From an uncultured Oscillospiraceae bacterium (GTDB lineage Bacteria > Bacillota_A > Clostridia > Oscillospirales > Oscillospiraceae): a DNA stretch of 38,982 nt. Each line of letters opens with the position of its first letter. Position 1 is the stretch's first letter. The notes below the pieces were generated by a model, which did no database searches, was not told where the DNA came from, and saw only the letters and a program-made list of their open reading frames with translations. Made by a program: the position numbers and the translations under genes. This document shows, piece by piece, positions 1 through 38,755 of this stretch. The stretch is from the NCBI GenBank assembly GCA_947631215.1, contig CANRKN010000008.1:1-38982 (forward strand), in the 5' to 3' direction.

Positions 1-117
1 GCCCTTTTGAGCATGCTCAACTCCTGCGCCAGCGGCGTTTCCGTGGTCAACATCGACAACGGCTTCGGCGCCGGGTATCTGGCCGGCATGATCAACCACA
101 TGGAGGCGAAAAAATGA
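1..117 (+). CDS. larB: LarB C-terminus (partial), nickel-pincer cofactor carboxylase/hydrolase
   Basis: Only the last 38 codons are present and the gene runs off the left edge. The visible tail contains [16 protein letters not shown], which matches the conserved C-terminal segment of LarB (an AIR-carboxylase-like protein). LarB is known to carboxylate nicotinic acid adenine dinucleotide and hydrolyse it, the first step of nickel-pincer nucleotide synthesis for lactate racemase. The stop codon overlaps the larC start (ATGA at 114-117), so the two are translationally coupled. Because only the tail is visible, nothing can be said about its catalytic residues. Identification rests on the short motif plus the larC-larE context. 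Confidence 0.88.
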
Positions 118-1334
118 GGACGCTGTACATAGACTGCGCCATGGGTGCGGCGGGGGATATGCTCTCCGCGGCGCTTATTGAGCTCCTGCCGGACCCGGCG
201 GGGTTTGTAAATAAACTCAACGCCCTGGGCATCCCCGGGGTGGAGTATAAGCTGGAAAAGGCCCAAAAGTGCGGCGTCACGGGCAGCCACATGACCGTGC
301 TGGTCCACGGGGAAGAGGAGGACCATGCCCTGCACCACCATCATGAGCACGAGCACCATCACGGCCATGACCATGAGCACGAGCATCACCACCACAGCGG
401 CCTGCACGACATAGAGCACCTGGTCCGGGACCATCTTACCCTGCCGGAGAAGGTCCGGGAGGACGTGCTGGCGGTGTACGGGCTCATAGCGGAGGCGGAG
501 AGCCACGTCCACGGCGTGCCCGTGCCGGAGATACACTTCCATGAGGTGGGCACGCTGGACGCGGTGGCGGATGTGACGGCGGCATGCCTGGCCATGGCGG
601 AGATTGCCCCGGATGCGGTGGTGTGCTCGCCGGTGCACGTGGGCGCCGGGCAGGTGAAGTGCGCCCACGGCATCCTGCCGGTGCCCGCCCCGGCCACGGC
701 GTATGTTTTAAAGGATGTGCCCATCTATGGGGGAGAGATACAGGGTGAGCTCTGCACCCCCACGGGGGCGGCTCTCTTGAAGCACTTTGCCGCATCCTTT
801 GGCCCTATGCCCCTGATGCGCCCCACGGCGGTGGGCTACGGCATGGGCGGGCGGGACTACCCCGCCGCCAACTGCGTCCGGGCCATTCTGGGGGAGAGCA
901 TGGAGGGCGGCACGGATGAGATGGTGGAGCTATCCTGCAATGTGGACGACATGACCGCGGAGGCGGTGGGCTTTGCCATGGAGCGGCTTTTTGACGCCGG
1001 GGCGAGAGAGGTCTACACCGTGCCCATCGGCATGAAAAAATCCCGCCCCGGCACCCTCCTGCGGGTGATATGCGCCCCGGCGGCGAGGGGGAAGATGGTG
1101 GAGCTGCTCTTCAAATACACCACCACCATCGGCGTCCGGGAGGCGGAGACGAGGCGCTATGTGCTGGCCCGGCGGGAGGAGACGCTGGATACCCCCTTCG
1201 GCCCTGTCCGGCGGAAGGCATCGGAGGGATATGGCGTGAGCCGGGCGAAGTATGAATATGAGGACCTGGCCCGTGTTGCCCGGGAGAAGGGCGTGAGCCT
1301 CCGGGAGGCGGAGGCTATGGTGGAGGGCCGCTGA
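114..1334 (+). CDS. larC: LarC, nickel insertion protein of the nickel-pincer cofactor pathway (fused LarC1-LarC2)
   Basis: 406 residues, the length of a full fused LarC. LarC is a CTP-dependent cyclometallase that inserts nickel into the pincer nucleotide. The N-terminus ([13 protein letters not shown], residues 4-16) is the LarC1 signature, and the C-terminal half carries the conserved [12 protein letters not shown] segment of LarC2. Residues 71-98 form a very His-rich loop of [10 protein letters not shown] type, typical of nickel-handling proteins and probably a nickel store or sink. In Lactobacillus plantarum the two halves are joined by programmed frameshifting; here they are one uninterrupted frame. 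It overlaps larB by 4 nt at its start and larE by 1 nt at its end. Confidence 0.96.
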
Positions 1335-2134
1335 TGGACGGGCTGCACGAGAAAAAGAAGGCCCTGGAGGAATATTTGCATGGCCTGGGGAGCCTGGCGG
1401 TGGCCTATTCCGCCGGGGTGGACTCCACGTTTCTGCTGGCCGCGGCCCACGAGGCGCTGGGGGAGAAGGTCCTGGCCGTGACGGCGAGGAGCGTCCTCTG
1501 CCCCCAGCGGGAGACCGAGGAGGCGGAGGCCTTCTGCCGGATCCGGGGCATAGAACATATCGTTCTTGACTACGACGCCCTGGCCGTGCCGGGGGTGAAG
1601 GACAATCCCCCCGACCGGTGTTATCTGTGCAAAAAAGCCCTGTTCGGCGAGGTGCTGGACGCGGCCCATGAGCGGGGCATAGAGCACGTGGCCGAGGGGT
1701 CCAACGTTGACGACGAGGGGGACTACCGGCCCGGCATGAAGGCCGTGGCGGAGCTGGGGATATTGAGCCCCCTGCGCCAAGTGCGTCTTGCCAAGGAAGA
1801 GATACGGGCCCTTTCCCGGGAGATGGGGCTGGACACCTGGGACAAACCCAGCATGGCCTGCCTCGCCAGCCGGTTCGTCTACGGCGAGACCCTTACGCCG
1901 GAGAAGCTCGCCATGGTGGCGCAGGCGGAGCAGAAGCTGCGGGACTGGGGCTTTTCCCAGATGCGGGTGCGGGTCCACGGGGACCTGGCCCGGGTGGAGG
2001 TGCTGCCGGAGGAGTTCGCCCGGCTCATCGTCCACGCCGGGGAGCTGGACGAATACCTCCGCTCCCTGGGCTTTGCCTACGCGGCCCTGGACCTGGCGGG
2101 GTATAAGACCGGCAGCATGAACCGGACGCTGTGA
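1334..2134 (+). CDS. larE: LarE, ATP-dependent sulfur transferase for the nickel-pincer cofactor (three-cysteine type)
   Basis: 266 residues. The N-terminal PP-loop (AYSAGVDST, residues 24-32) adenylates the carboxylates of the pincer precursor, which LarE then converts to thiocarboxylates. Three cysteines stand at the positions relevant to chemistry: C96 and C99 in RCYLCK, and C176 in SMACLASRF. C176 falls at the same number as the sacrificial cysteine of L. plantarum LarE. The added C96/C99 pair matches the LarE subtype thought to hold a [4Fe-4S] cluster that carries a replaceable sulfide. The start ATG overlaps the larC stop by one base. No larA lies next to it, but a LarA homolog is present at 26727-28169. 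Confidence 0.95.
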   Translation: MDGLHEKKKALEEYLHGLGSLAVAYSAGVDSTFLLAAAHEALGEKVLAVTARSVLCPQRETEEAEAFCRIRGIEHIVLDYDALAVPGVKDNPPDRCYLCKKALFGEVLDAAHERGIEHVAEGSNVDDEGDYRPGMKAVAELGILSPLRQVRLAKEEIRALSREMGLDTWDKPSMACLASRFVYGETLTPEKLAMVAQAEQKLRDWGFSQMRVRVHGDLARVEVLPEEFARLIVHAGELDEYLRSLGFAYAALDLAGYKTGSMNRTL

Positions 2135-5031: not shown

Positions 5032-5040
5032 GTGCGATCT

Positions 5041-6693: not shown

Positions 6694-7017
6694 ATGAGCC
6701 AGCAGCAGGACCACGAGTATATGCACGCCCACGGCATCGCCCACAGCCACGGCCATGTCCACGAGAACCAGAAGGCGGTGGTGAACCGCCTGGCCCGGGC
6801 CATAGGCCACCTGGAGAAGGTGAAGCGGATGGTGGAGGCGGGGGAGGACTGCTCCGAGGTGCTGGTGCAGCTGGCCGCGGTGCGCTCCGCCCTGGCCAGC
6901 ACCGGCAAGGTCATCCTGCAGGACCACATGCGCCACTGCATGGTGGACGCCATCAACGCCGGGGACCAGACCGCCGTGGACGACCTGTGCCAGGCGGTGG
7001 AGAAACTCATCAAATAA
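6694..7017 (+). CDS. CsoR/RcnR/FrmR-family metal-sensing repressor with His-rich N-terminus
   Basis: 107 residues. The core from about residue 25 is the all-helical DUF156 fold: LARAIGHLEKVKRMVEAGEDC, then EVLVQLAAVRSAL, then LQDHMRHCMVDA. The sensing positions are C53, H78 and C82, with H81 beside them, as in copper- or nickel-sensing members. The N-terminus adds seven histidines (H7, 11, 13, 17, 19, 21, 23) in an HxHxH pattern, which suggests nickel, cobalt or zinc rather than copper. It diverges from the nickel/peptide-type importer and probably represses it, and itself, through the G-tract site at 6670-6679. The metal is inferred, not shown. Confidence 0.92.
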   Translation: MSQQQDHEYMHAHGIAHSHGHVHENQKAVVNRLARAIGHLEKVKRMVEAGEDCSEVLVQLAAVRSALASTGKVILQDHMRHCMVDAINAGDQTAVDDLCQAVEKLIK

Positions 7018-7033
7018 CCGGAAGAAAGATACT

Positions 7034-7062
7034 TTGCGTTTTTTGAACGCATAAGCTATAAT
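7034..7062 (+). promoter_or_regulatory. Sigma-70-type promoter for the [FeFe] hydrogenase gene
   Basis: TTGCGT at 7034-7039 and a perfect TATAAT at 7057-7062 are separated by 17 bases. AAGGAGAGAG and the ATG at 7094 follow. The gene therefore has its own promoter and need not be read from the regulator gene. Confidence 0.75.
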
Positions 7063-7093
7063 ATCGCCAGCAATAAGCGCAAGGAGAGAGACT

Positions 7094-19908: not shown

Positions 19909-21720
19909 TTATTCCGAAAAGCCGGTGTAGCGGGCCGTCACATCCCCCAGCCGGTACACGTCCAGCCAAGGCTGATAGGCGCTCTCGTTCTCCCGCAGGA
20001 AGGCCAGCATCTCCCGCCGGCGGGCGGCGGCCTCCTCCTCATCGCCCCGGGCGAGGCTCTCCAGCGCCCAGGCCAGGAGCCCGGTGTACCGGGCGTGGAA
20101 GCCCAGCCGGCCGGGGAAGGTATCCGGGGCGGCCTCGTGGCCCTGGGCGAAGCGCTCACACAGCGCCGCGGTTTCCGCCATCCGGACGGCCATGTCCGGG
20201 TCCGTGCGGGGGCCTTTGCCGTTCACATAGTCGCAGCGGCTCAAGTCTGACAGGGAGGAGAGGAACCCCAGCGCCTCCCGGGCGCTGTCGCCATAGGCGG
20301 CGTCGAAATACTCGCCGATGAGCTCCTCAATGTCCGCGTCAGCGTCCAGCAGGGCCCGGCCCATAACATAGTTGGGAAGATAATTGGGCATCCCGGCCCG
20401 CAGCTCCTGGCAGCTTATATAGCCGTTCAGGCCCATGGCCGCCAAGCGGCGGATATCCCCGTGGATGACCCGGGCGATGTGGACATAGCCCAAGTCTCCG
20501 TAGTGGGACCGGCCAAGGGGATAGTCGTAGACGAAGCTGTCCCCATTGAATACTTCCTGCCAGCCCCGGAGGAAGGCCATGTTTTCCCCCAGGTCCGCGG
20601 GGAGGGTGATGCGGTTGCGCCGGTAGGGGGGGATGGCCCGCCGGGGCGTATCCAGGTCGTATGACCGCTCGAAGGTCCGGCTGATGGGGGCGAACATGAG
20701 GGTGAAGCGCCCCGGGTTCGTAAGCCGCGCCTTTACCGGCGGCCATAAAAGCTCCTGATAGAGGAGGAACACGATCTTCGTGTCCAGGCCACGGTCCGTG
20801 AGGCGCTCATCGATGGCGTTCAGGAGGGCCACATACTGGTCCGTGGGCAGTTCCTTTTGGCAGGCAGGGCACTGGCAGACGTTGTTGTACTCATCCGCCA
20901 GCCACACGTGCAGGTAGTCCACGTCCCGGTGGGCGGCGGCATAATCCGCCACCGCGTCCGCGAAGCGGGCCACGGCCTCGGAGTTGGAAAGACACAGGTT
21001 GGTGTTGGTGGGCACGCCCTGATAAAGCCCCCGCACGCCGTCCACCAGGGCGGCGAGAGGGCGCTTATCCTCCGCCAGCGGCCTGGCGTCGGCGTCCCAG
21101 GTGAGGGCGTCATAGCCCAGCACCTGGCCGGTCCAGCCGTGGCCCACTTTGTGGAGCATCAGCCCCCGGCGGCGTATCTCCGCCTCCGCTTCGGCCATGA
21201 CCGCCTCCGCTCCGAAGGGCTCGGGGGGCAGGGAGGGATTTCCCAAATGCCGGTACCAGCGGTCCAGAAAGACATAGGGGGTCTTGAACTGGAGGAAGAA
21301 GGCGTTGAAGCCCGCCTTGGGCAGCCAGTCGATGAAGGTAAGGATGTTCTCCCGGCTGTCCGCCCCCTCGATGCACACGCCCCGGTGGCGGTAAGCGGCG
21401 GTGCGCTCATAGCGAAGTTGGGGCAGGGCGTCCAATTGGGGGACCACCTCATTGTCCTTCCCGGGGGCCAGAAACCGGCAGCCCAAGGCGTGGAGGGCGT
21501 CGTATACCCCCAGCAGCACCGCCCTCTCCGAGGAGCCGGCGATGGTCCCACCGGCGGGGGACAGGTCCACCGAAAAGGCATCGTTCCCCGGCGCAGGCCG
21601 GGTGACGAGGGCGATGGATAGATTTGCGTCCGCTGGCAGCATCCGGACGAGATAATCGTGCAGCTCCGCCCCGGCAAAGGCCAAGGTGCCGCCGGGGCCA
21701 TGGGTCACAGAAATGTTCAT
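19909..21720 (-). CDS. DUF4838-domain protein, glycoside-hydrolase-like
   Basis: 603 residues from the ATG ending at 21720, preceded by AAGGAC. The N-terminal 110 residues resemble the alpha/beta domain placed before GH20 or GH67 barrels (VLLGVYDALHALGCRFLAPG). The barrel part includes YRHRGVCIEGADSRENI and HVWLADEYNNVCQCPACQKE, the cysteine-bearing DUF4838 signature. No signal peptide is present, so it should act in the cytoplasm. Related proteins are presumed to act on glycans, but no catalytic pair can be assigned here. Its neighbour upstream is the ABC importer. The promoter and a strong hairpin directly in front of the gene are described separately. Confidence 0.78.
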   Translation of the reverse strand: MNISVTHGPGGTLAFAGAELHDYLVRMLPADANLSIALVTRPAPGNDAFSVDLSPAGGTIAGSSERAVLLGVYDALHALGCRFLAPGKDNEVVPQLDALPQLRYERTAAYRHRGVCIEGADSRENILTFIDWLPKAGFNAFFLQFKTPYVFLDRWYRHLGNPSLPPEPFGAEAVMAEAEAEIRRRGLMLHKVGHGWTGQVLGYDALTWDADARPLAEDKRPLAALVDGVRGLYQGVPTNTNLCLSNSEAVARFADAVADYAAAHRDVDYLHVWLADEYNNVCQCPACQKELPTDQYVALLNAIDERLTDRGLDTKIVFLLYQELLWPPVKARLTNPGRFTLMFAPISRTFERSYDLDTPRRAIPPYRRNRITLPADLGENMAFLRGWQEVFNGDSFVYDYPLGRSHYGDLGYVHIARVIHGDIRRLAAMGLNGYISCQELRAGMPNYLPNYVMGRALLDADADIEELIGEYFDAAYGDSAREALGFLSSLSDLSRCDYVNGKGPRTDPDMAVRMAETAALCERFAQGHEAAPDTFPGRLGFHARYTGLLAWALESLARGDEEEAAARRREMLAFLRENESAYQPWLDVYRLGDVTARYTGFSE

Positions 21721-21826: not shown

Positions 21827-22825
21827 TTACTCGGCGATCTGGTCCAGGGCCTCCTGCATGACGTCGAACAGGACCCATTCGCCTACGTCCTCGGCAGCCT
21901 CTTCCTCGGTGATGTTGCCGCCGGCGATCATGTCGTTCTGCACGCCCTCATAGTAGCCCTTCATGGTGCCGTCGGCCAGGGCGGCCTCTATGTCGGCGAT
22001 GTTGAACCAGTGGGCGTCGCCCCACTGCAGGAGGTTGATCTCCTTGTCGGTAGCGGTCTGCTCGGCGCACCACTGGGCGACCTCATCGGCATGGTCGGGA
22101 TCCGCGCCGTAATCCATGGCCTTGAACAGGGCCCGGCTGAAGCGGACCAGAGTTTCGTGGTTCTCCTCCGCGTAAGCGGGCAGGCAGATCCAGCTGGACA
22201 TGTTGGTGGAGCCGTCGGCGAACTCGATCTCATAGGAGCCCTCGCTCTGCTCCAGGCACATGGTGGTGTAGGGGTTCCAGGTCACGGCCACGTCGATGTC
22301 GCCGGAGATCATGGCGGGCACGATGTAGCCGGGATCCAGGGCGTTCAGGGTCACGTCGTCACGGGTCAGGCCCGCCACATTCAGGGCGTTGTCCAGGGTG
22401 GTCTCGGAGGAGGAGCCGGCGCTGTAGCCGATCTTCTTCCCGGCCAGGTCTTCCACGGTCTCGATGCCGGACTCGGCGGAGCAGACCAGCTTGTCGGTGG
22501 TGTGCACGGAGCTGGGGGCAAAGATGATGGCGTTGCCCAGGATGCACAGCCGGTGGGCGCCCTTGCCGATGTAGGCCAGGTCGATGGAGCCGCCCTCCAT
22601 GGCCGCGATCTCAGAGGGGCCGTCGCCGAACTCGGTCAGCTCCACGGTGATGCCCTCGTCCTCAAAGAAGCCGCCGTTGATGCCGGTCATGACCGCCCAC
22701 AGGGAGGCATAGTTGGCCATGTAGCCGACACGCAGGGTGATGGGCTCCTCCTCAGCGGCGAAAGCCACGGCGCCCAGACTCAGGACCATGGCCAGGGCCA
22801 GGATGATAGCGAGAAACTTTTTCAT
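21827..22825 (-). CDS. ABC transporter substrate-binding protein, NitT/TauT (SsuA-like) family
   Basis: 332 residues. A signal peptide (KKFLAIILALAMVLSLGAVAFA|AEE) without lipobox is followed by an NMT1/SsuA-type periplasmic fold: LRVGYMANYASLWAVM, GGFFEDEGITVEL, IAAMEGGSIDLAYIG, VEDLAGKKIGYSAGSSSE and DIDVAVTWNPY. Family substrates include aliphatic sulfonates, taurine, nitrate and pyrimidine precursors; the exact one cannot be read from the sequence. AGGAGG precedes the ATG. It is the last gene of a permease-ATPase-binding-protein operon and is followed by the terminator at 21741-21770. The lack of a lipid anchor in a Firmicute is slightly unusual. Confidence 0.9.
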   Translation of the reverse strand: MKKFLAIILALAMVLSLGAVAFAAEEEPITLRVGYMANYASLWAVMTGINGGFFEDEGITVELTEFGDGPSEIAAMEGGSIDLAYIGKGAHRLCILGNAIIFAPSSVHTTDKLVCSAESGIETVEDLAGKKIGYSAGSSSETTLDNALNVAGLTRDDVTLNALDPGYIVPAMISGDIDVAVTWNPYTTMCLEQSEGSYEIEFADGSTNMSSWICLPAYAEENHETLVRFSRALFKAMDYGADPDHADEVAQWCAEQTATDKEINLLQWGDAHWFNIADIEAALADGTMKGYYEGVQNDMIAGGNITEEEAAEDVGEWVLFDVMQEALDQIAE

Positions 22826-22886: not shown

Positions 22887-23678
22887 TTACTTGCGGACCT
22901 CCAGGTATTCCTGGTAGACCTCGTTCCAGACCTCGGTCTTCAGCTCCAGGAAGCGGGGGTCGTTCTTGGTGGCCTGGTCCCGGGGGTAGGGGATGTCCAC
23001 GTCCACGATGCGCTTGATGCGCCCGGGCCGGGCGGACATGATGACCACCCGCTGGGCCAGCAGTATGGCTTCGTCCACGTCGTGGGTGATGAAGAAGCAG
23101 GTCTTCTGCTCCTCCTCCCAGGTCTTCAAAAGCTCCGTCTGCAGCTGGGCGCGGGTCTGGGCGTCCAGGGCGCCGAAGGGCTCATCCATCAGCAGCACCT
23201 CCGGGTTGTTGGCATAGGCCCGGGCGATGGCCACACGCTGCTTCATGCCGCCGGACAGCTCCTTGGGGTAGGAGTTTTCAAAGCCCTCCAGACCCACCAG
23301 CTTTATGTACTTGCGGGCGATGGCCTCGCACTCCGCCTTGGGCAGGCGCTTCATCTGGGGGCCGAACATGACGTTTTTCAGCACCGTCTGCCAGGGGAAC
23401 AGGGCGTACTGCTGGAACACCACGCCCCGCTCCACGCCCACGTCGGTGATGGGCTTGCCGTCCAGGTAGCAGGTGCCGCTGGTGGCGTCATGGAGGCCGG
23501 CGATGATGTTCAGGAGCGTGCTCTTTCCGCAGCCGGAGGGACCCACCACGCAGACGAACTCGTTTTCCATGATGTCTAGGTCCACGCCGTTCAGGGCCAC
23601 GGTGGTGCCGTGTTCGCCCTTGTATTCCTTATAGACGTTTTCGATGTGGAGCTTTACTGGTCTCGTTTCTCCTGCCAT
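22887..23678 (-). CDS. ABC transporter ATP-binding protein, NitT/TauT (SsuB-like) family
   Basis: 263 residues with all ATPase motifs: Walker A GPSGCGKST (46-54), Q-loop region VFQQYALFPW (87-96), signature LSGGMKQR (141-148), Walker B VLLMDEPFGALD (161-172) and a switch histidine in CFFITHDVDEA. FGALD and the C-terminal YPRDQ-type end are common in SsuB/TauB proteins. The ATG overlaps the permease gene by 25 bases and has AAAGGAGG 8 bases upstream, so the start is well supported. It powers the importer formed with the neighbouring permease and binding protein. Confidence 0.95.
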   Translation of the reverse strand: MAGETRPVKLHIENVYKEYKGEHGTTVALNGVDLDIMENEFVCVVGPSGCGKSTLLNIIAGLHDATSGTCYLDGKPITDVGVERGVVFQQYALFPWQTVLKNVMFGPQMKRLPKAECEAIARKYIKLVGLEGFENSYPKELSGGMKQRVAIARAYANNPEVLLMDEPFGALDAQTRAQLQTELLKTWEEEQKTCFFITHDVDEAILLAQRVVIMSARPGRIKRIVDVDIPYPRDQATKNDPRFLELKTEVWNEVYQEYLEVRK

Positions 23679-24451
23679 GAGGTGAGCCTCCTTTCGATGA
23701 AGTTGACGAGCATGTTCAGAAGCATGCCGATGATGCCGATGATGATGATGTACATGAGCATGGGCGCCGACTCAAAGGTGCCGGACAGGGCCCGGATGCG
23801 CATGCCGAGGCCCGCCTGGGCGCCGGTGGATTCGGCGGCCAGCAGGGTGGTGAGCCCTGCGCCCAGGCCCAGCCGCACGGCGGTGATGATGAAGGGCACC
23901 GTGGCGGGCAGGGTGATGCGGAAGAAGATGTCCATGTCCTTGGCCCCCAGCACCCTGGCCGCCTTCACCAGGGTGGTATCGATGTTGGCGATGCCGCCGT
24001 AGATGGTGACGCACATGGTCATGAAGGTGCAGATCCAGATGAGGATGATGGCGGGAGTCTTGCCCACGCCCACCATGATGACGATCAGGGGCGCATAGGC
24101 CAGGGCGGGGATGTTCCGGATGAAGTTGATCCAGGGCATGATGATCTTCTGCACCGGGGTGTACCAGGCCATCAAAAACGCCATGGGGATGGCGGTGACG
24201 AAGCCCAGGCCGAAGCCGGCGGCCACGCAGATCATGCTGGAGCAGAAGTCCTTCCACAGCACCTTCCGCTCAAAGGCCATCTTGGGGAAGGATTCGACAA
24301 AGGTCTTCTGGATGAAGGGGAAGCTCCGGCCGGTGGCCTTTCCCAGGCTCAGGAGGTACCACACGCCGATGGCCACCACCAGGGAAATGAGAAGCCAGAC
24401 CTTATTGCTCAGGGGCTTCCGCTTGATCTTCTCGGGCTTTTTCTCGTTCAA
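23654..24451 (-). CDS. ABC transporter permease, NitT/TauT (SsuC-like) family
   Basis: 265 residues. A basic N-terminus (EKKPEKIKRKPL) leads into a first membrane segment (WLLISLVVAIGVWYLLSL). The coupling loop AARVLGAKDMDIFFRITLPA and about six membrane helices fit SsuC/TauC. The only start in this frame before an upstream stop is a TTG at 24451; an ATG at 24458 is in another frame. TTG is therefore the likely start, with AAGAG upstream. First gene of the operon, read from the promoter at 24522-24550. Confidence 0.92.
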   Translation of the reverse strand: MNEKKPEKIKRKPLSNKVWLLISLVVAIGVWYLLSLGKATGRSFPFIQKTFVESFPKMAFERKVLWKDFCSSMICVAAGFGLGFVTAIPMAFLMAWYTPVQKIIMPWINFIRNIPALAYAPLIVIMVGVGKTPAIILIWICTFMTMCVTIYGGIANIDTTLVKAARVLGAKDMDIFFRITLPATVPFIITAVRLGLGAGLTTLLAAESTGAQAGLGMRIRALSGTFESAPMLMYIIIIGIIGMLLNMLVNFIERRLTSWQEKRDQ

Positions 24452-24709: not shown

Positions 24710-25525
24710 ATGGACTACTATGCTATCCCCCCCCAGGAGCTGGGGAAAGACGCGAAGATACCCGTGTGCCCCCTGGGGGACTCGGGAGAGGTATTTTATG
24801 AGCTGGCCTCACAGATGACGGAGGCCATCCGGGCCAATAACGCCGCTGGGAAAAAGACCGTGTTCATCTGCCCGGTGGGGCCGGTGGGCCAGTACCCGGT
24901 GTTCGTGCGCCTGGTGAACCGGGACAGGCTGAGCCTTAAAAACTGCTGGTTCATCAACATGGACGAGTATCTGAACGACGACGGGACCTATATCGACGAG
25001 GCGAGCCCTCTGTCTTTCCGAGGGTTTATGGCCCGGAACGTGTACGGGAGGATAGACCCGGACCTTCTCATGGGCCCGGAGCAGCGGGTGTTCCCCGACC
25101 CGGCGGACCCGGGGAAGGTGGACAGGCTCATTGAGGAGCTGGGCGGCGTGGATATCTGCTTCGGCGGCATCGGCATCAACGGCCATCTGGCCTTCAACGA
25201 GGCCCGGGAGGACATAACGGCGGAGGAATTCGCAGGGCTGGGCACGAGGATCCTCACCCTGAACCCGGAGACCCGGGCCGCCAACGCCATCGGCGACCGG
25301 GGCGGGGCCATCGACGCCATGCCCAAGATGGCCGTCACCATCGGCATAAAGCAAATACTCTCCGCCAAAAAGGTGCGCCTGGGTGTGTTTCGGGACTGGC
25401 ACCGGGCGGTGGTGCGCCAGGCGGCCTACGGGCCCGTGACGGCCCATTTCCCGGCGAGTTTGCTGCAAAACCACCCCGACGCGGTGATCTACACCAACGC
25501 CCTGGCCGCGGGCCGGCCCTTCTAA
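24710..25525 (+). CDS. nagB: Glucosamine-6-phosphate isomerase/deaminase-family protein (NagB-like)
   Basis: From the ATG at 24710 the protein has 271 residues; a TTG further upstream falls in the -35 box and is rejected. NagB converts glucosamine 6-phosphate to fructose 6-phosphate and ammonia. FINMDEYL keeps the catalytic aspartate (D85), and GGIGINGHLAFNE keeps H159 and E164. The aspartate before G-H in classical NagB (D141 in E. coli) is asparagine here (N157). This points to a divergent subfamily that may have altered activity or a different sugar phosphate. It is followed 1 base later by nagA, which supports amino-sugar catabolism. Family membership is sure; exact reaction is likely but not certain. 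Confidence 0.85.
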   Translation: MDYYAIPPQELGKDAKIPVCPLGDSGEVFYELASQMTEAIRANNAAGKKTVFICPVGPVGQYPVFVRLVNRDRLSLKNCWFINMDEYLNDDGTYIDEASPLSFRGFMARNVYGRIDPDLLMGPEQRVFPDPADPGKVDRLIEELGGVDICFGGIGINGHLAFNEAREDITAEEFAGLGTRILTLNPETRAANAIGDRGGAIDAMPKMAVTIGIKQILSAKKVRLGVFRDWHRAVVRQAAYGPVTAHFPASLLQNHPDAVIYTNALAAGRPF

Positions 25526-25526
25526 G

Positions 25527-26669
25527 ATGGAGGCGGTATTATTTCAAAACGGCCGGGTCTATACCGGCGGCCGGTTCGTCCGGCGGGACGTACTGGCGCT
25601 GGACGGGACCATAGCGCACTGGGGCGCGCCTGTGCCGCCGGGGTGCAGGACCTTGGACTTGGCTGGGCGGATGCTGGCGCCCGGCTTCATCGACATCCAC
25701 ACCCATGGAGGCGGCGGGGTGGACGTGAACGCCGCGGATGACGAGGGCTTTGCCCAAATATCCCGGTTCTTCGCCGCCCAGGGCACCACCGGGTGGCTGT
25801 GCAGCATTTTGACGGACACGGAGGAGCAGACCCTCCGGGCCATCGGATACGCCCGGGCCGCTATGGAGGGGTCTGCCGTGGGCGCGCGGCTCTTGGGCAT
25901 CCATTTGGAGGGGCCGTTCCTGGCAAAGGAGTATAAGGGCGCCATGCCCGAGAGCCTTCTCAGGACGGGGGACGCGGCGCTCTTCCGCCGGTATCAGCAG
26001 GCCGCAGGCGGCGCGGTGCGGTATATGACCGTGGCGCCGGAGGTGCCCGGCGTGGTGGATATGATACGGGAGATAGCGGGCGAGGTGACTGTGGCCATCG
26101 GCCACTCCGGCGCGGACTATGACACGGCCATTGCCGCCATCGACGCGGGGGCCAGGGCCGCCACCCACACCTTCAACGCCATGGGCCTTTTCCACCAGCA
26201 CCGGCCCGCCATCATGGGCGCGGTGCTGGAGCGGGACGTGGTCTGCGAGGCCATATGCGACGGCCGGCACCTGCACCCCGGCACGGTGCGGATGCTCCTG
26301 GCCTGCAAGGGCTGGGATAAAGTCGCGGCCATCACCGACTCCATCCAGGCCGCCGGCCTGCCCGACGGGCAGTATAAGCTGGGCGTGAATGACGTGGTGG
26401 TCCGGGAGGGCGACGCGGTGCTGGCGGACACGGGCGTGCGGGCCGGGTCCACGCTGACCACCGGTCAGGCGCTCCGGAACCTCGTCCGTTTCACGGGCCA
26501 GGGCCCGGAGAAAGTCCTGCCCCTGCTGACGGAAAACCCTTCCCGGCTCATTGGCCTTAAAGGCAAGGGCGCCATCGCCCCGGGCATGGACGCCGACATG
26601 GTGGTGCTGGACGAGGAGCTGAACGTGTGTGCCACCTATGTGGGCGGCACATGCGTATTCGAGGCGTAA
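25527..26669 (+). CDS. nagA: N-acetylglucosamine-6-phosphate deacetylase
   Basis: 380 residues, normal length for NagA, which removes acetate from N-acetylglucosamine 6-phosphate in the cytoplasm. Metal and catalytic positions are present: HTHGGGG (58-64), HLEGPF (E128), IGHSGADY (H193), ATHTFNAMG (H214) and catalytic D271 in ITDSIQAAG. There is no Shine-Dalgarno sequence before the ATG and only one base separates it from the nagB stop, so its translation should depend on nagB. The pair would feed fructose 6-phosphate into glycolysis. A terminator follows. Confidence 0.95.
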   Translation: MEAVLFQNGRVYTGGRFVRRDVLALDGTIAHWGAPVPPGCRTLDLAGRMLAPGFIDIHTHGGGGVDVNAADDEGFAQISRFFAAQGTTGWLCSILTDTEEQTLRAIGYARAAMEGSAVGARLLGIHLEGPFLAKEYKGAMPESLLRTGDAALFRRYQQAAGGAVRYMTVAPEVPGVVDMIREIAGEVTVAIGHSGADYDTAIAAIDAGARAATHTFNAMGLFHQHRPAIMGAVLERDVVCEAICDGRHLHPGTVRMLLACKGWDKVAAITDSIQAAGLPDGQYKLGVNDVVVREGDAVLADTGVRAGSTLTTGQALRNLVRFTGQGPEKVLPLLTENPSRLIGLKGKGAIAPGMDADMVVLDEELNVCATYVGGTCVFEA

Positions 26670-26683
26670 GAAGCACACAGAAG

Positions 26684-26714
26684 AAGGCCTCCCCGATGGA
26701 CGGGGAGGCCTTTT
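26684..26714. terminator. Bidirectional intrinsic terminator
   Basis: A perfect 12-bp stem (AAGGCCTCCCCG, 26684-26695, with 26701-26712) and a 5-base loop end in TTTT. It separates nagA (+) from the LarA homolog (-), whose stop is at 26727. Confidence 0.93.
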
Positions 26715-26726
26715 GCTGTGCGTTTG

Positions 26727-28169
26727 TCACTCTTTCATGCACAGATGGACCGCCGCGGTGGTGAAGGTCCGGGGCAGGGCCAGAATGTTGGGCTCGGGGC
26801 CCACGTATTTCTTCATAGCGTCCGCCAGGGCCTCCTCCACGGTGGCCCGGGTCTTCAGGCCCATGCTCCGGGCGATGCCCGGCTCCCGGGCGCCCACGAT
26901 GTAGATGGCGCTGGTGTGCTCCTCGGCCAGGTGGCCGCAGCTCATCATGGAAAAGCCGTGGAAGGGGTGGAAGGCGTTGGCGAAGCGGTACTTGTCCGTG
27001 TACTCCTTCCGGGTGGCGAAGTACTCCCCGTACCGGTCCATGTCCGGCAGGATGTTCATGCCGTCGTGCTGGAACATTTCATACAGCTCCCGCAGGTAGG
27101 GCCAGCGCTCGTCGTGGAACCACCCGTCGCATATGCTGGGCACGATGAACACGCAATGATCCGCCATCACCCGCTTGTGGCGGATGACCTGGGCGGAGAG
27201 GGCCTGCATCATCTGGATGGGGTTGGTGCCCATGCCGGCGCCGTAGTGGAAGTTGGTGGGCATGCCGAACACCAGCACGTCATATTTCTTTTCCGCCCAG
27301 TGGACATAGGTGCGCTTGTCCGCGGTGGCCCAGGCGATGGGCTGCATCTCCTTCGCCCAGCCGGAGTTTATCTCGATCTGCCGGCTCTTGGTGTCCAGCA
27401 CCGCGTCGCAGCAGAAGAACCTGTGGCCCATCTTCTCTTCCATGAGCATGCCCTGCTCGTCGAACTTGGAGCGCATGACGCTGTGGGTGGAGACGGGCAC
27501 GAAGTCGGGCTGGTGCATCACCCGGGGCACGTGGTGCCCGGCGATGGAGCGCCAGTGGGTGATGCCGGTGGCGCAGTGCTTGTAGCCGCCGGAGTAGCCC
27601 CCGTAGGGGTTGCCCTGGGTGTGGCCGATGAGGATGGGCACGTCCGCGTCGAAGACGTACTTGTTCATGATCACGTGGTCGCCGGAGGCGGTATAACCCA
27701 GGTCCACCAGGTGGTCGTAGTCCTCGCCGTCGTGGCTGGTGATCTGCCCGGTGGGATAGAACTCGCCGAAGAGCTCATCGCCCAGGATGGTGCGCATCTC
27801 ACCCACCGTGGCCCGGGGGTGCAGGCCGTTGGAAAACAGGAGCAATATGTCCTTTTTCTCCACGCCCACGGCGTACAGCTCGTCCAGGCACGCCCGGATG
27901 GCCACCTTCCGGTGGCTGGTGGGCTGGTTGCCGCCCTTGACGATGTCAGGGATGACGAATACCACCTTGTTTCCGGCTTTGGCGATGTCCCGGAGGGCGG
28001 GCATGCCGATGGGGTGGCGGATGGAGTCCAACGTGGCGGCGTAGAGGCTGTCCCAATCCTGGGGCAGGCAGGGGGGATCGGGGACGGTCTCGCCGGGGAT
28101 AAAAACGTCGGTGGTGTCGGGAAGCTCGGCGCTCATAAGGCCGTTTCCGTATTCAAAGTCCAGTTTCAT
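26727..28169 (-). CDS. LarA-family nickel-pincer-dependent racemase/epimerase homolog
   Basis: 480 residues of the lactate racemase family (DUF2088). SNGLHPRAT carries a His (H117) matching H108 of LarA. GGYSGGYKHCATG carries K197 at the place of the lysine that binds the pincer cofactor, and GHHVPR gives H213 at the place of H200. The segment between H183 and K197 is four residues longer than in LarA. Known members racemise lactate, malate and other 2-hydroxyacids or epimerise sugar acids; this one has no assigned substrate. It is the last gene of the aldolase-phosphofructokinase-isomerase operon, 3 bases behind the isomerase. Its cofactor would be supplied by larB, larC and larE at the left end of the window. 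Confidence 0.9.
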   Translation of the reverse strand: MKLDFEYGNGLMSAELPDTTDVFIPGETVPDPPCLPQDWDSLYAATLDSIRHPIGMPALRDIAKAGNKVVFVIPDIVKGGNQPTSHRKVAIRACLDELYAVGVEKKDILLLFSNGLHPRATVGEMRTILGDELFGEFYPTGQITSHDGEDYDHLVDLGYTASGDHVIMNKYVFDADVPILIGHTQGNPYGGYSGGYKHCATGITHWRSIAGHHVPRVMHQPDFVPVSTHSVMRSKFDEQGMLMEEKMGHRFFCCDAVLDTKSRQIEINSGWAKEMQPIAWATADKRTYVHWAEKKYDVLVFGMPTNFHYGAGMGTNPIQMMQALSAQVIRHKRVMADHCVFIVPSICDGWFHDERWPYLRELYEMFQHDGMNILPDMDRYGEYFATRKEYTDKYRFANAFHPFHGFSMMSCGHLAEEHTSAIYIVGAREPGIARSMGLKTRATVEEALADAMKKYVGPEPNILALPRTFTTAAVHLCMKE

Positions 28170-28172
28170 ATG

Positions 28173-29009
28173 TCACTCTCCCAGATAAAGGCGGATGATC
28201 TCCAAGTACTGCTCGGGGTAGAACCCGATCTGGCCGGTGAACTGCGTCAGGGCGATGAGGCCGCCGTCGATCTCGCCGATGGAGGCCAGCATGGCGGCGT
28301 TGTCCGCCTTGAGCCCGCCGCCGTAGACCACGTCCAAGCCCCCGGTGCGCTCCTTCACGAACCGGGCTATCTTCTGGATATAGGGCCCGTCCGCCGGGGT
28401 CTTCCCCGGGCCGATGGACCACACGGGCTCGTAGCCGATGACCACATGGGCTTTGTCCACGCCCGCCAGGCCCACGTCCAGCTGTCGGCCCAGGACCTCC
28501 TGCCAATTTGGCTGCTCCTCGCTTGTCTCGCCGATGCAGTATAGCACGTCCAGCCTCTGGGCCAGGGCGCATTTGATCTCCTGATTCAGGAGCCTGTCCA
28601 CGGCGGCCATATCAGAGCTCCCGCCCTCGGCCAGCACGCCTTTTTTGTCGTTTCGCTCCTCGCAGTGGCCGATGAGGGCGGCGGCGCAGCCCATGGCCTT
28701 CACGATGGAGGCGGGCCGGTTGGTAGTGAAGGCGCCGAAGCTGCCGCCCACAGCGGTATCCATGCGGTACACGCCTTGGCTGCCCAGCTTCACGGGGCTG
28801 TCCGCCGTGCGGGCCGCGGCGGCGGAGAGCAGATGGGCCTCCGGCAGGAACTGGACGAACTCCACCTTCGCGGGGTCATACTTTTTCAGGGCCTCCTGGG
28901 TGCCATTCACCACGGCGGCGCCCCAGTCCTTCACCGGGGCCAGCCGGTTCACGCCGCCGTATTCCGGCGGCACGTCAAAGCGCTTAAGGTTGAGATAGAT
29001 GTGTTTCAT
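28173..29009 (-). CDS. Triosephosphate isomerase-family protein, divergent paralog
   Basis: 278 residues. The TIM catalytic set is kept: N7 and K9 in YLNLKRF, H115 in IGHCEERND and E193 in GYEPVWSIGPGKTP, with a phosphate-binding end at YGGGL. It departs from housekeeping TIM in several places: LNLK instead of NWKM, GHCEERN instead of GHSERR, IGPGKT instead of IGTGKT, and GGGL instead of GGSV. It is also about 25 residues longer than usual. It may interconvert triose phosphates or a related substrate. It lies 6 bases behind the phosphofructokinase-like gene and 3 before the LarA homolog, inside a single operon. Confidence 0.88.
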   Translation of the reverse strand: MKHIYLNLKRFDVPPEYGGVNRLAPVKDWGAAVVNGTQEALKKYDPAKVEFVQFLPEAHLLSAAAARTADSPVKLGSQGVYRMDTAVGGSFGAFTTNRPASIVKAMGCAAALIGHCEERNDKKGVLAEGGSSDMAAVDRLLNQEIKCALAQRLDVLYCIGETSEEQPNWQEVLGRQLDVGLAGVDKAHVVIGYEPVWSIGPGKTPADGPYIQKIARFVKERTGGLDVVYGGGLKADNAAMLASIGEIDGGLIALTQFTGQIGFYPEQYLEIIRLYLGE

Positions 29010-29015
29010 AAAGTC

Positions 29016-30185
29016 TCACTTTCTCAGTATGGCGTACTGGGGCAGGTCCCCGCCGATGAGGGGCAGGGCGTAGTCGAAAAACGCCTCAGAGATGGCGTTG
29101 CCGTTCTCGATCCACTCCAGGGGGAACTTCTTCTCCGCGTTGGCCACTTCCGCCAGGGGCACGAAGTCCATGCCGCTCTGGTAGCTGGGCTCCCGGATGG
29201 CCTGGATGGAGACCATCAGGCCGCTCTTCCCGGCCAGGGCCGCTTTCACCGCCGCCCAGCCCACGGCATACGCCTCCTCCCGGTCTACCTGGGAGACGTA
29301 GGGGATGGAGGCCCGGCCCAGCAGGCCGGGCTTCTCCGCCCGGGCCTTCAGGCCCAGTTTCCGGATGATGGCGTCGGCCACGTGCTGGGCGGTGCCGCCG
29401 GGGACCGTGTGGCCGAAGCCGTCCACGATGCCCGTGTCGGCGAGGGGTTTCCCGTCAAGGCCGCATATGCCCTCGCTCACCGTCACCAGCAGGCCCTGGC
29501 CCTTTGCGTAGGCTGCCTCAATGTCCGCCAGCATCTTATCCTCGTCCACGGGAAGCTCGGGCAGGTAGGTCAGCACTTGGCAGTTGGTGAGCCGGGACGC
29601 CAGGGCGCTGGCCGCGGTGACCCAGCCGGCGTTGCGGCCCATGAGCTCCAGCACCACCACATGGATGGGCAGGGAGGAGGCGTCCAGCGCCAGCTCCGAG
29701 GCGCTCAGCGCCGCGTACCGGGCGGCGGAGCCGAAGCCGGGGCAGTGGTCCGTCAGGACCAGGTCGTTGTCCATGGTCTTGGGGATGCCGATGACCCGCA
29801 GGTCCAGGCCCTCCCGCTTGGCCAGCTCGTCGATCTTGTGGCAGGTGTCCATGGAGTCGTTGCCGCCGTTATAGAAGAAAGCGCCGATGTCGAACCGCTT
29901 TAGCGTTTCCAGCACGGCGGGGTAGTCCGCGTCGGTGAGTTTCCGGCGGCAGGAGCCGATGGCGGAGGCGGGGGTGTCGCCCAGGCGGGCGACGACGGCG
30001 GGGACGACGCTGGTGAGGTCCATGAGGTCGTCTTTGAGGATGCCCTCCGCGCCGAAGCGGGCGGCGTAGATCTTGTCCACCTTGCCCGAGTCCCGGGCCG
30101 CCTCGATGACGCCCTGCAGGGAGCGGTTGATGACGGCGGTGGGGCCGCCGCCGTGGGCCACCAGGATATTCATGCCCATGGTCAT
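29016..30185 (-). CDS. Phosphofructokinase-family enzyme, probably PPi-dependent type
   Basis: 389 residues. The start overlaps the aldolase stop (ATGA); in-frame ATGs at codons 3 and 5 are alternatives. ILVAHGGGPTAVIN is the N-terminal phosphate-binding loop. At the donor-selecting sites it has GGNDS (107-111) and PKTMDND (135-141). ATP-dependent enzymes have GGDGS and PGTIDND there, and pyrophosphate-dependent ones GGDDS and PKTIDND. So it resembles the PPi group, with an Asp-to-Asn change at the metal-binding position. D139 is the catalytic base. The substrate would be fructose 6-phosphate or another ketose phosphate such as tagatose or sedoheptulose phosphate. Its product would go to the aldolase encoded just upstream. 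Confidence 0.9.
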   Translation of the reverse strand: MTMGMNILVAHGGGPTAVINRSLQGVIEAARDSGKVDKIYAARFGAEGILKDDLMDLTSVVPAVVARLGDTPASAIGSCRRKLTDADYPAVLETLKRFDIGAFFYNGGNDSMDTCHKIDELAKREGLDLRVIGIPKTMDNDLVLTDHCPGFGSAARYAALSASELALDASSLPIHVVVLELMGRNAGWVTAASALASRLTNCQVLTYLPELPVDEDKMLADIEAAYAKGQGLLVTVSEGICGLDGKPLADTGIVDGFGHTVPGGTAQHVADAIIRKLGLKARAEKPGLLGRASIPYVSQVDREEAYAVGWAAVKAALAGKSGLMVSIQAIREPSYQSGMDFVPLAEVANAEKKFPLEWIENGNAISEAFFDYALPLIGGDLPQYAILRK

Positions 30186-31339
30186 ATCCCCTTCTTGCGG
30201 TAGTATTCCGCCATCTCGTCCAATGTCACGGGCTTGATGAGCGGGGCCTTGCCCACACTGTCAAACTCCACGATGAGGGTGCCCACGACCTCCTTCACGC
30301 CCCGCTCGATGCAGTCCACGATACGGGCCACGTCCCCGTCAGGCACATTGCCGTACATGACCGTGTCCATGATGGGCGGGAAAAACACCCGGGGGTCGAA
30401 GGCGGAGGGATTGGCCTGCAAAAGGGCGTAGATGCCGCCTATGGAGGCGCTGTCCCGGAGCTTGGGCTCGTCCCGGAAGAGCTCCCGGAGGTTTCTCGTC
30501 ACGGCCAGGCGTATATCCGTGTCCACGTTGATCTTGCGGATGCCCAGCTTGGAGACCTCTTTCAATTGCTCCTTCTTGATGCCGTAGGCGTCGTGGATGT
30601 CGCCGCCCAGGGCGTTGATCTCGGAGACGATGTACTGGGGCACGGTGGAGGAGCCGTGGCTCACCAGGGTGCCCTCGATGCCGGCGTGCATCATGCACTC
30701 CTTGGTGGCGATGGCGATCTCCTTGCGGATGACCGTGTCCTTGCCCTTGTTGGCGCCGTGCTTGGTGCCGTAGCTGATGGCCAGGGCGTCCACGCCGGTT
30801 TTGCGGAAGAACTCCACCGCGTCCAGGGGGTTGGTGTAGGTGCTGTTGGCGGCGAACACATGGTCCTCCACCCCCGCCAGCACGCCCAGCTCGCCCTCCA
30901 CAGTCACGCCCCGCTCATGGGCGTACTTGACCACCTCGCGGGTCAGCTCCACGTTCTCGTCAAAGGGCAGGGAGGAGCCGTCGATCATCACGGAGGTGTA
31001 GCCCCCGGCGATGGCCGCCTCGCAGGCCTCGAAGCTCTTGCCGTGGTCCAGGTGCAGGGCCACGGGGATGGGGCTGTGTTCGGCGTACTTCTTCACGGCG
31101 CCCGCGATGTTCAGAGCGCCCTTTTTCTTGTCCTCCAGGGTGCCGTTTTGAAAGTCCGTCCGGCCGCCCATAAAGGCGTTGGCCAGGTCCGCCCCCTGCA
31201 ATATGGCGGCGGAGCGGAACATCTCGTGGACTTCAATAACGGCCTTGGCCTGGCAGACGGCGTTGACGTTGAAGGCGCCCTGGGCGTAGTTATAGGTCTC
31301 GGTGGCGTCCAGAATGGCTTTCATGGGGACCAGTGGCAT
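30182..31339 (-). CDS. fba: Class II ketose-bisphosphate (fructose-bisphosphate type) aldolase
   Basis: 385 residues. Zinc and active-site marks are ALHLDHG (H96, D98, H99), VEGELGVLAG (E148, E150), GTKHG, SHGSSTVP and KINVDTDIR. It is longer than the common 285-residue bacterial form, with a C-terminal part running to MAEYYRKKGI. It splits fructose 1,6-bisphosphate, or another ketose bisphosphate, into dihydroxyacetone phosphate and an aldehyde. It is the first gene of the four-gene operon, has a strong AAGGAGG and a near-consensus promoter (31396-31424). Confidence 0.93.
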   Translation of the reverse strand: MPLVPMKAILDATETYNYAQGAFNVNAVCQAKAVIEVHEMFRSAAILQGADLANAFMGGRTDFQNGTLEDKKKGALNIAGAVKKYAEHSPIPVALHLDHGKSFEACEAAIAGGYTSVMIDGSSLPFDENVELTREVVKYAHERGVTVEGELGVLAGVEDHVFAANSTYTNPLDAVEFFRKTGVDALAISYGTKHGANKGKDTVIRKEIAIATKECMMHAGIEGTLVSHGSSTVPQYIVSEINALGGDIHDAYGIKKEQLKEVSKLGIRKINVDTDIRLAVTRNLRELFRDEPKLRDSASIGGIYALLQANPSAFDPRVFFPPIMDTVMYGNVPDGDVARIVDCIERGVKEVVGTLIVEFDSVGKAPLIKPVTLDEMAEYYRKKGI

Positions 31340-31395
31340 GGCGTTACCTCCTTGGTAAAGCGCTGACGCGCATTTTTTGTTAGATTTGTATAAAC

Positions 31396-31424
31396 ATCAT
31401 ACCTGTACGCCCTGTAAAAGTCAA
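31396..31424 (-). promoter_or_regulatory. Promoter of the aldolase-LarA homolog operon, with inverted repeat
   Basis: On the minus strand TTGACT (31424-31419) and TATGAT (31401-31396) are 17 bases apart. An inverted repeat GTCAA-CCCT-TTGAC (31420-31433) overlaps the -35 box and could be an operator. No terminator separates this promoter from the end of hsdR. Confidence 0.8.
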
Positions 31425-34396: not shown

Positions 34397-34409
34397 GATG
34401 ATTCCTCCT

Positions 34410-38607: not shown

Positions 38608-38648
38608 GATTTGACCTCCTGAAGGCGGCGGTTTTTCCTGCGGTTCTA

Positions 38649-38677
38649 ATTTTACCATGGGAAGATGTTGAGCGCAA
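38649..38677 (-). promoter_or_regulatory. Promoter of the fic-hsdMSR operon
   Basis: On the minus strand TTGCGC (38677-38672) and TAAAAT (38654-38649) are 17 bases apart. The leader then contains AGGAGG before the fic ATG. No other promoter is visible before hsdM, hsdS or hsdR. Confidence 0.7.
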
Positions 38678-38755
38678 GCGGTTGACATGTAGAAAATTTT
38701 CATATTTTTCGACATATGCTTCTGACGAGGGAGGATGTTCTCTAAGGATAAGTAA

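Follow-up and report, generated by a model that had tools for sequence, protein, structure and literature searches.

A LarA-linked operon of glycolytic-enzyme paralogs with a probable role in sulfo-sugar breakdown

INTRODUCTION

What would an enzyme of the nickel-pincer-nucleotide (NPN) family LarA be doing in one operon with an aldolase, a phosphofructokinase (PFK), and a triosephosphate isomerase (TIM)? This question is raised by a 38,982-nucleotide stretch of DNA from an uncultured Oscillospiraceae bacterium (GenBank assembly GCA_947631215.1, contig CANRKN010000008.1; below, "the window" refers to this whole stretch), on the minus strand of which fba, pfk, tim, and larA follow each other in that order between positions 31339 and 26727. 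Open reading frame (ORF) calls reproduced exactly the layout given in an original prediction, which had been made from the sequence alone, with intergenic gaps of -4, 6, and 3 bases, and the families named there were confirmed by Pfam and NCBIfam scores; all four Pfam scores were above cut-off (F_bP_aldolase, 239 bits; PFK, 169; TIM, 110; Lar_N, i.e., PF09861, 114).

Our answer starts from what can be observed directly, namely, gene order, conservation, pairing, module swapping, and sequence matches. On these grounds, the operon probably belongs to a pathway for the breakdown of sulfo-sugars. With somewhat more confidence than doubt, we further propose that it constitutes the core of a route resembling sulfoglycolysis, in which carbon-carbon cleavage and triose handling take place and the starting sugar is a hexose or hexosamine with a sulfo group at C6 (either an O-sulfate or a sulfonate), a plausible substrate being, for example, mucin N-acetylglucosamine-6-sulfate (GlcNAc-6-sulfate).

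RESULTS

The operon appears to encode specialized paralogs of glycolytic enzymes

The window was compared with the best 80 of at least 573 relatives (81 to 95% identical); in the resulting 81 loci, with flanks of up to 10 kb, genes were called with a codon model and clustered, and the presence of families was determined by tblastn. Since the TIM paralog is located directly upstream of larA in 67 of these loci (same strand, <300 bp between matched ends), the arrangement is not due to chance. Nor does the operon represent glycolysis proper, because separate copies are present in 26 LarA-bearing genomes: a second TIM (>300 bits) in 25 of them (the exception being G015), at least one PFK-family gene not of the cluster type in every genome, and a fructose-bisphosphate aldolase (FBA) besides the cluster copy in 25 (G026 showed one copy only).

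Profile scores set the paralogs apart as well. The TIM paralog passes no NCBIfam tim equivalog (35 to 78 bits, against cut-offs of 131 to 883), and fba stays below every NCBIfam FBA equivalog cut-off, barely exceeding that of the cbbA subfamily (217 versus 215.6). The pfk product does pass a model, that of the diphosphate-type PRK14072 (436 versus 273). In the TIM paralog, catalytic residues N7, K9, H115, E117, and E194 are kept in all 9 aligned members, including the catalytic Asn, Lys, His, and Glu shared with triosephosphate isomerase, whereas loops 7 and 8 have been rebuilt: YGGS in loop 7 is replaced by YGGGLK, and an insert takes the place of GGASL in loop 8. In ordinary TIM, it is these two loops that bind phosphate.

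Taken together, fba, pfk, tim, and larA look like specialized paralogs. The idea of a dedicated pathway, with phosphorylation of a ketose derivative and its cleavage to trioses, was already part of the original prediction and gains support here; among relatives (26 genomes, 81 loci), the four genes are neither the only glycolytic copies nor confined to a single strain, two conditions that together had been named as speaking against it. That we are dealing with ordinary duplicated glycolysis genes, merely coexpressed with a LarA gene, seems a very remote prospect: all of the paralogs do fall into glycolytic Pfam families, but the separate housekeeping copies, the failure to reach the curated equivalog cut-offs for tim and FBA, and the TIM-LarA pairing described below all argue against it.

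LarA belongs to the single-His subfamily

The window LarA matches two solved structures over nearly its full length, 9q3j (LarABw, 808 bits) and 9q2u (LarASp, 783 bits; see also 9q3k), while the next-best solved match, malate racemase Mar2, reaches only 65 bits; none of the NCBIfam LarA models was passed in the profile search. LarABw and LarASp represent an octameric LarA subfamily in which the second catalytic His is replaced by Asn, as described by Gatreddi et al. (2025; PMC12611868), from whom we take the residue roles used here. The same replacement is found in the window LarA (N187), which agrees with LarABw at positions H117, N187, K197, and R434. Residues H117, N187, K197, H213, H308, Y309, and H404 are invariant across 10 aligned sequences, including that of the window, and the first four are kept in at least 95% of 80 relatives. 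With a Lar_N domain, full-length similarity, and one catalytic His, the NPN-binding Lys, and the Ni-binding His retained, we assign the protein to the single-His subfamily.

According to the main text of PMC12611868, LarASp does not racemize lactate and carries a covalent 316.5-Da ligand, modeled as a linear phosphorylated aldose. Genes reported there as neighbors of larA encode glucose-6-phosphate isomerase (GPI), PFK, and TIM, as well as fructose bisphosphatase (FBPase), TIM, FBA, glucosamine-6-phosphate isomerase, and aldose epimerase; a role in carbohydrate metabolism is proposed, with structures but neither a substrate nor a reaction presented in that text. The gene pairing around single-His larA is in part already in print, then, and its function is not. 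Likewise, the earlier statement that no pathway with this gene set had been described stands insofar as no pathway is given there, but the set of neighbors as such had been published.

It had also been suggested that LarA racemizes or epimerizes a 2-hydroxyacid that is a substrate or product of the pathway, thereby correcting its stereochemistry. Membership of the Lar_N family fits that proposal, as does the description of sulfolactate, a 2-hydroxyacid, as a compound of sulfoglycolysis (PMC12890257). Nevertheless, we consider it highly unlikely, given Asn at the second catalytic His position, the lack of lactate racemization reported for LarASp, and the absence of a dehydrogenase making or using a hydroxyacid from six compact, complete clusters discussed below.

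Genes for two proteins serving the NPN cofactor, LarC and LarE, are located approximately 25 kb from larA in the window, within which LarB was not matched. Of the 26 genomes with related loci, 17 have LarC, and locus L099 (4571-10358) contains TIM, LarA, LarE, LarB, LarC1, and LarC2 as a single run of genes, with nagA and a TauE-like gene lying upstream. In another locus, L103 (8146-9800), LarA is split over two overlapping ORFs (397 and 176 amino acids), possibly through a frameshift or an assembly error.

LarA and the TIM paralog are strictly paired and share a neighborhood

In an evenly drawn sample of 291 Clostridia genomes, 9 had LarA (E ≤ 1e-100), and the TIM paralog (E ≤ 1e-50) was present in exactly those 9 (one of which, G005, is the chosen center), with both genes on one contig and approximately 2 kb or less apart in every case. 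The pair persists with the more distant LarA proteins (47 to 64% identical) of G136, G205, G146, G091, and G214. Genome G205 has three LarA genes, one of which (L098) is instead accompanied by a HIBADH-like gene and TauE.

Among the 81 loci, tblastn detected the TIM paralog in 71, FBA in 44 (39 at ≥150 bits), and PFK in 38. The same loci contained NagB (33), a TauE/SafE exporter (33), the ATPase (33), permease (31), and substrate-binding protein (SBP; 25) of an ATP-binding cassette (ABC) importer, NagA (29), a GPI paralog (20), a DUF4838 protein (18), a ROK regulator (17), a transaldolase (11), a transketolase (5), and a HIBADH-like protein (4, none of them with TIM). For the 33 loci whose flanks exceed 6 kb on each side, the counts were 29 for TIM, 21 for FBA, 18 each for NagB and the ATPase, 17 each for TauE, NagA, and the permease, 16 for PFK, and 15 for SBP.

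As a control, the neighborhoods of the housekeeping TIM were taken from 20 of the 26 genomes (11.6 to 19.9 kb each). None of the 20 contained TauE, SBP, importer ATPase, permease, NagA, PFK, FBA, DUF4838, GPI paralog, transaldolase, transketolase, HIBADH-like, or ROK genes, and a single short NagB match (116 bits) was the only hit. In these 20 genomes, the neighborhood of LarA, on the other hand, yielded the ATPase and NagB in 14 cases each, the permease and NagA in 13 each, FBA in 12, TauE, SBP, and PFK in 11 each, DUF4838 in 9, and the GPI paralog and transaldolase in 3 each.

Neighboring genes point to a sulfo-sugar as the substrate

In the 11 loci with a transaldolase, this enzyme stands in for PFK and FBA: either of the latter (FBA at ≥150 bits) was found in none of these 11 loci, against 46 of the others (Fisher's exact test, P = 3e-5, with kinship ignored). 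The transaldolase of L029 matches the sulfofructose transaldolase BmSF-TAL (8bc3) over its full length at 280 bits, with the best other transaldolase, 1vpx, at 145. Since the LarA tree needs just 3 changes to explain the transaldolase label (at least 2 of which are forced by well-supported branches), only a few independent events lie behind this swap.

Five loci (L052, L058, L059, L065, and L068) encode relatives of the sulfoquinovose isomerase SftI that fall into one gene cluster, and another relative follows directly after LarA in L100; 3 of these 6 were scored against NF048012, at 215 to 217 bits (L065 and L058) and 166 bits (L100). TauE/SafE exporters are also encoded by L098, L099, and L102, all of which are distant loci. 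Loci L039, L060 (with two), and L103 have sulfatases identified by Pfam, and weaker tblastn matches (64 to 108 bits) were obtained in L041, L042, and L095; sulfatase matches of either kind were present in 4 of the 81 first loci and in none of the control neighborhoods. Besides its sulfatase, L103 contains GH20C and GH2 proteins and an ORF that, by eye, is fucosidase-like, and L073 encodes a heparinase-like protein. The individual proteins put through Pfam, a minority of the locus ORFs, included no GH31 or GH188 sulfoquinovosidase, and no genes for methylthioribose, erythrulose, or phosphonate routes were noticed, although no dedicated search was made for these.

As to the type of sulfo group, TauE, the sulfonate-type importers, and the BmSF-TAL-like transaldolase speak for sulfonates, and the sulfatases, NagA, and NagB speak for O-sulfates. 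GlcNAc-6-sulfate is reported to be released from mucin by Bifidobacterium bifidum, which does not itself assimilate it (PMC11186840).

An unusual hexose or amino sugar with neither phosphate nor sulfate, and hence no charge at C6, could likewise account for a lost phosphate grip, in which case the trioses would be dihydroxyacetone phosphate (DHAP) and glyceraldehyde. Such a substrate would suit the NagB-like relatives that lack the usual phosphate loop and have no sulfo genes nearby, and phosphotransferase system (PTS) genes do stand beside FBA, TIM, and LarA in L057. Even so, sulfonate-type importers and TauE/SafE are part of the cluster and missing from the control neighborhoods, the replacement module is a transaldolase of the sulfofructose type, and SftI-like isomerases are encoded at several loci, leaving this option, in our view, only a slim chance.

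Six complete clusters lack a sulfolactaldehyde reductase

In six loci (L016, L018, L021, L025, L078, and L080), every gene could be assigned from the cleavage module to TauE: a transaldolase or FBA plus PFK, TIM, LarA, permease, ATPase, SBP, DUF4838, NagB, NagA, and TauE, with an additional ROK regulator in L078 and L080. A sulfolactaldehyde (SLA) reductase or dehydrogenase was absent from these six clusters, the remainder of the genomes not having been searched. By comparison, SlaB and/or YihU is listed in Table 1 of PMC12890257 for the Embden-Meyerhof-Parnas (EMP), EMP2, transaldolase (TAL), and Entner-Doudoroff (ED) pathways, and the transketolase (TK) route of sulfoglycolysis is described in the same source as yielding C2 products. 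Because such an SLA enzyme is not in the clusters, we do not file the operon as a sulfo-EMP or sulfo-TAL pathway, only as one working like them.

Since a change of cleavage module leaves both TIM and LarA in place, the triose is the step where one would naturally put them. For the proposal that the two enzymes act on the sulfo-triose, we rate the chances as even; the favored reaction for LarA is a hydride transfer within one molecule, either the sulfo-triose itself or the product made from it by the TIM paralog.

Within the same sulfo-sugar pathway, LarA might instead act upstream, as a sugar epimerase (converting, e.g., a galactose- or tagatose-6-sulfo compound to the fructose form), with TIM alone handling the triose. 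Characterized LarA enzymes are described as racemases and epimerases (PMC7583248), the LarASp ligand of 316.5 Da is larger than a sulfo-triose, and L103 encodes a GH2 beta-galactosidase, all of which would suit an epimerase. We still regard this role as unlikely, for LarA and TIM remain tightly paired even where NagA/NagB, GPI, FBA, or PFK was not found, and the missing second His argues against a simple two-sided epimerization (PMC12611868).

Proposed pathway

In the pathway that we propose, the substrates, the order of the steps, and the reactions of the TIM paralog and LarA are predicted ones. Import would take place through the sulfonate-type ABC system, after which, in some loci, the DUF4838 glycosidase would detach the sulfo-sugar from a glycan. 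An N-acetylglucosamine-6-sulfo compound would then be deacetylated by NagA and deaminated and isomerized by the NagB-like protein to give 6-sulfo-fructose; alternatively, the glucose form would enter through a GPI-like or SftI-like isomerase. PFK would phosphorylate 6-sulfo-fructose at C1, and FBA would cleave the product to DHAP and a sulfo-triose (glyceraldehyde-3-sulfate or sulfolactaldehyde), two steps that a single sulfofructose-type transaldolase would replace in other loci. The TIM paralog would act on the sulfo-triose aldehyde, using the enediol machinery usual for TIM while lacking its usual hold on phosphate, and single-His LarA would carry out an internal hydride transfer on the resulting product, such that neither an NADH-dependent reduction nor an NAD-dependent oxidation of the sulfo-triose would be needed. 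Finally, the sulfur product would be exported by TauE/SafE.

A redox-neutral variant of this scheme, to which we assign little probability, has the TIM paralog eliminating sulfite or sulfate to yield methylglyoxal, comparable to what a leaky TIM or methylglyoxal synthase does with phosphate, after which LarA would convert hydrated methylglyoxal to D-lactate. The hydride would move from C1 to the cofactor and from there to C2, via bound pyruvate, for which one catalytic His would be enough.

Observations that do not fit the proposed pathway

Several observations weigh against a sulfo-sugar pathway as outlined above or narrow the evidence for it. To begin with, the 80 comparison loci are the closest of the relatives listed, and many of them are cut by contig ends, as are many of the 15 loci (of 81) in which no cleavage module was found. 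LarC was not found in 9 of the 26 genomes, all of them metagenome-assembled. The PFK positions that we first took for a changed 6-phosphate pocket also vary among ordinary diphosphate-type relatives, and this mark was dropped; sequence changes in FBA were uninformative by alignment as a signal of specificity. The SftI-like scores are far below the NF048012 cut-off of 700, the importer proteins of the window do not reach the curated taurine, sulfonate, or nitrate cut-offs, and for the SBP, the scores of a sulfonate-binding structure (2x26, 48 bits) and a nitrate-binding one (3e4r, 47 bits) are nearly the same, with a taurine-binding one close behind (6ssy, 42 bits; all weak). TauE was not matched in the window. 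The lack of a reductase applies to the clusters only, SLA reductases elsewhere in the genomes not having been searched for, and dehydrogenase-family genes do adjoin LarA in L007, L035, and L096.

Other loci depart from the scheme in gene content. In L005, L006, L069, L071, and L098, LarA is found with a HIBADH-like gene and neither TIM nor an aldolase; in L050, L057, L061, L067, L070, and L096, it lies near split transketolase genes, with TIM sometimes present, possibly a variant of the same pathway; and in L057 (3277-9113), PTS-like genes (EIIA by Pfam, EIIB and EIIC by eye) stand beside FBA, TIM, and LarA. Were a PTS to import and phosphorylate a ketose, PFK would not be needed.

The NagB-like gene, finally, is not tied to LarA: it was found in 18 of the 291 Clostridia genomes, with just 3 among the 9 LarA genomes and 15 lacking this LarA, and in 10 NagB-like loci, no sulfonate-type importer, TauE, LarA, or TIM paralog was present within six ORFs on each side. 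One NagB-like locus, L131, encodes a transaldolase with 29% identity, and distant SftI-like relatives (22 to 26%) occur in L125, L131, and L132. Because NagB-like and SftI-like genes both occur at loci without sulfo genes, neither is a sulfo marker on its own.

The HIBADH-like loci have features of their own. A two-permease ABC importer is encoded in L006, L069, L071, and L098 (L005 reaches a contig end and shows none), and TauE is present in L069, L071, and L098. For the L006 HIBADH-like protein, the best NCBIfam matches, none of which reaches its cut-off, are threonate dehydrogenase and related reductases, with sulfolactaldehyde reductase among them.

DISCUSSION

Relation to known systems

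The published picture of the single-His LarA subfamily already includes the conserved active-site positions and several of the gene neighbors found here. To this we add the sulfo context, the strict pairing with TIM, and the transaldolase swap; the main text of PMC12611868 contains no word starting with "sulfo," "TauE," or "transaldolase," and a literature search (PMC only, without bioRxiv) turned up no paper that connects LarA or TIM paralogs with sulfo-sugars.

The logic of the sulfoglycolytic EMP (YihSVTU; SqvD/SqiK/SqiA) and transaldolase (SftI/SftT) pathways is shared: an isomerase is followed by either kinase plus aldolase or a transaldolase, and then a sulfo-triose, with both an importer and an exporter present and a transaldolase related to BmSF-TAL. 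Unlike those sulfoquinovose pathways, the cluster has a GPI-like or NagA/NagB-like entry and a PFK-A-type kinase, the latter presumably unlike YihV. The cluster further differs in having TIM and LarA where SlaB and/or YihU appears in Table 1 of PMC12890257.

With the NagA/NagB pathway for N-acetylglucosamine-6-phosphate, the cluster has both enzyme families in common, but its genes are linked to a sulfonate-type importer, and its NagB (103 bits, against a cut-off of 237) lacks both the PTGGTP-type loop and the phosphate-site lysine. The window NagB-like protein has CPVGPVGQYP in place of that loop, and the aligned lysine falls within a FR[DS]WHR motif. Similarly, HHREPG has become HQHRPA in NagA, and SKSGTTTEP has become AKNFETLEP in the GPI paralog (kept in at least 95% of 20). 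In the ordinary enzymes, the positions changed here in NagB, GPI, and NagA bind phosphate.

The NagB loop was initially considered as a mark of a sulfo substrate but was dropped, as NagB-like proteins without sulfo neighbors lack the usual loop as well; a comparison of NagB-like relatives showed only the FR[DS]WHR motif to be particular to the LarA-linked clade. At loci L125 to L134, a broader family of NagB-like proteins, again with no phosphate loop of the usual kind, is accompanied mostly by NagA-like genes and in some cases also by FucI/SftI-like or (by eye) IolB-like genes, perhaps for the catabolism of unphosphorylated amino sugars. Among proteins flanking NagB-positive loci (76 of 103), no family had more than 2 members among the 25 commonest of 116 families.

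A link to sulfo-sugars would give a function to single-His LarA, an open question in the nickel-pincer field (PMC12611868), and would provide a short, directly testable list of substrates. If the proposed pathway is correct, sulfoglycolysis gains an amino-sugar route, plausibly for GlcNAc-6-sulfate, in which the sulfo-triose is dealt with in the absence of a reductase or dehydrogenase, and this would bear on which microbes feed on sulfated mucin and on the source of sulfite in the gut. The redox-neutral variant, if true, would mean that sulfur can be taken off a sugar common in the gut with neither a sulfatase nor oxygen, and it would add a new class to the reactions of the nickel-pincer cofactor.

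Other features of the window

The positions of the operon and its neighbors are listed in Table 1. A promoter upstream of fba, as put forward in the original prediction, is represented by a sigma-70-like site read from 31424 to 31396, which is a consensus match only: promoter-like sites numbered 2 in the window, with 0.8 expected, and terminator-like sites numbered 5, with 4.2 expected. The ORF of the NagB-like protein is open from 24653, with a likelier start at the ATG at 24710, preceded by GGAG. For the DUF4838 protein, the start was chosen by eye, and no signal peptide was seen by eye; its AlphaFold2 model (pLDDT, 89) has GH20 N-acetylglucosaminidases as its top Foldseek matches (TM, approximately 0.5).

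Table 1. Positions of the LarA-linked operon and neighboring features in the window
Feature	Position	Strand	Basis
LarC, nickel insertion for NPN cofactor	3..1334	+	TIGR00299, 201 bits (cut-off 90); NF052512, 143 (cut-off 50)
LarE, sacrificial sulfur transferase for NPN cofactor	1334..2134	+	TIGR00268, 326 bits (cut-off 150)
DUF4838 protein, predicted cytoplasmic glycosidase, GH20/GH84-like fold	19909..21720	-	PF16126, 50 bits
NMT1/SsuA-type substrate-binding protein	21827..22825	-	SsuA_fam, 119 bits (cut-off 163.5)
ABC ATPase, nitrate/taurine type by best match	22887..23678	-	ntrCD and taurine ATPase, ~260 bits each, below cut-offs
ABC permease, taurine/sulfonate type by best match	23654..24451	-	TauC, 121 bits; SsuC, 80; below cut-offs
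NagB-like amino-sugar-6-X deaminase paralog	24710..25525	+	TIGR00502, 103 bits (cut-off 237)
NagA, N-acetylglucosamine-6-phosphate deacetylase family	25527..26669	+	TIGR00221, 287 bits (cut-off 226); 2vhl, 218 bits
Terminator-like 12-pair stem after larA, between larA and convergent nagA	26684..26712	-	Consensus match only
larA, NPN-type LarA homolog, single-His (His to Asn) subfamily, 480 amino acids	26727..28169	-	Matches to 9q3j and 9q2u
tim, TIM paralog, 278 amino acids	28173..29009	-	TIM Pfam family
pfk, PRK14072-type (diphosphate-type) phosphofructokinase paralog, 389 amino acids	29016..30185	-	NF010675, 436 bits (cut-off 273)
fba, class II aldolase paralog, 385 amino acids; predicted sulfo-ketose-1-phosphate aldolase	30182..31339	-	PF01116, 239 bits
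Promoter-like TTGACT-17-TATGAT, sigma-70-like, 10/12, upstream of fba	31396..31424	-	Consensus match only

Directly upstream of the operon, at 31448-38715, the window contains type I restriction-modification genes (HsdR, HsdS, and HsdM by best NCBIfam match, below cut-offs) along with a gene for a Fic-type protein. At 14489-17313, an MFS-type membrane protein gene overlaps a D-alanine--D-alanine-ligase-like gene by 4 bases, and at 7094-8545, an iron-only hydrogenase-type protein is encoded beside an SBP_bac_5-type ABC transporter (3168-7140).

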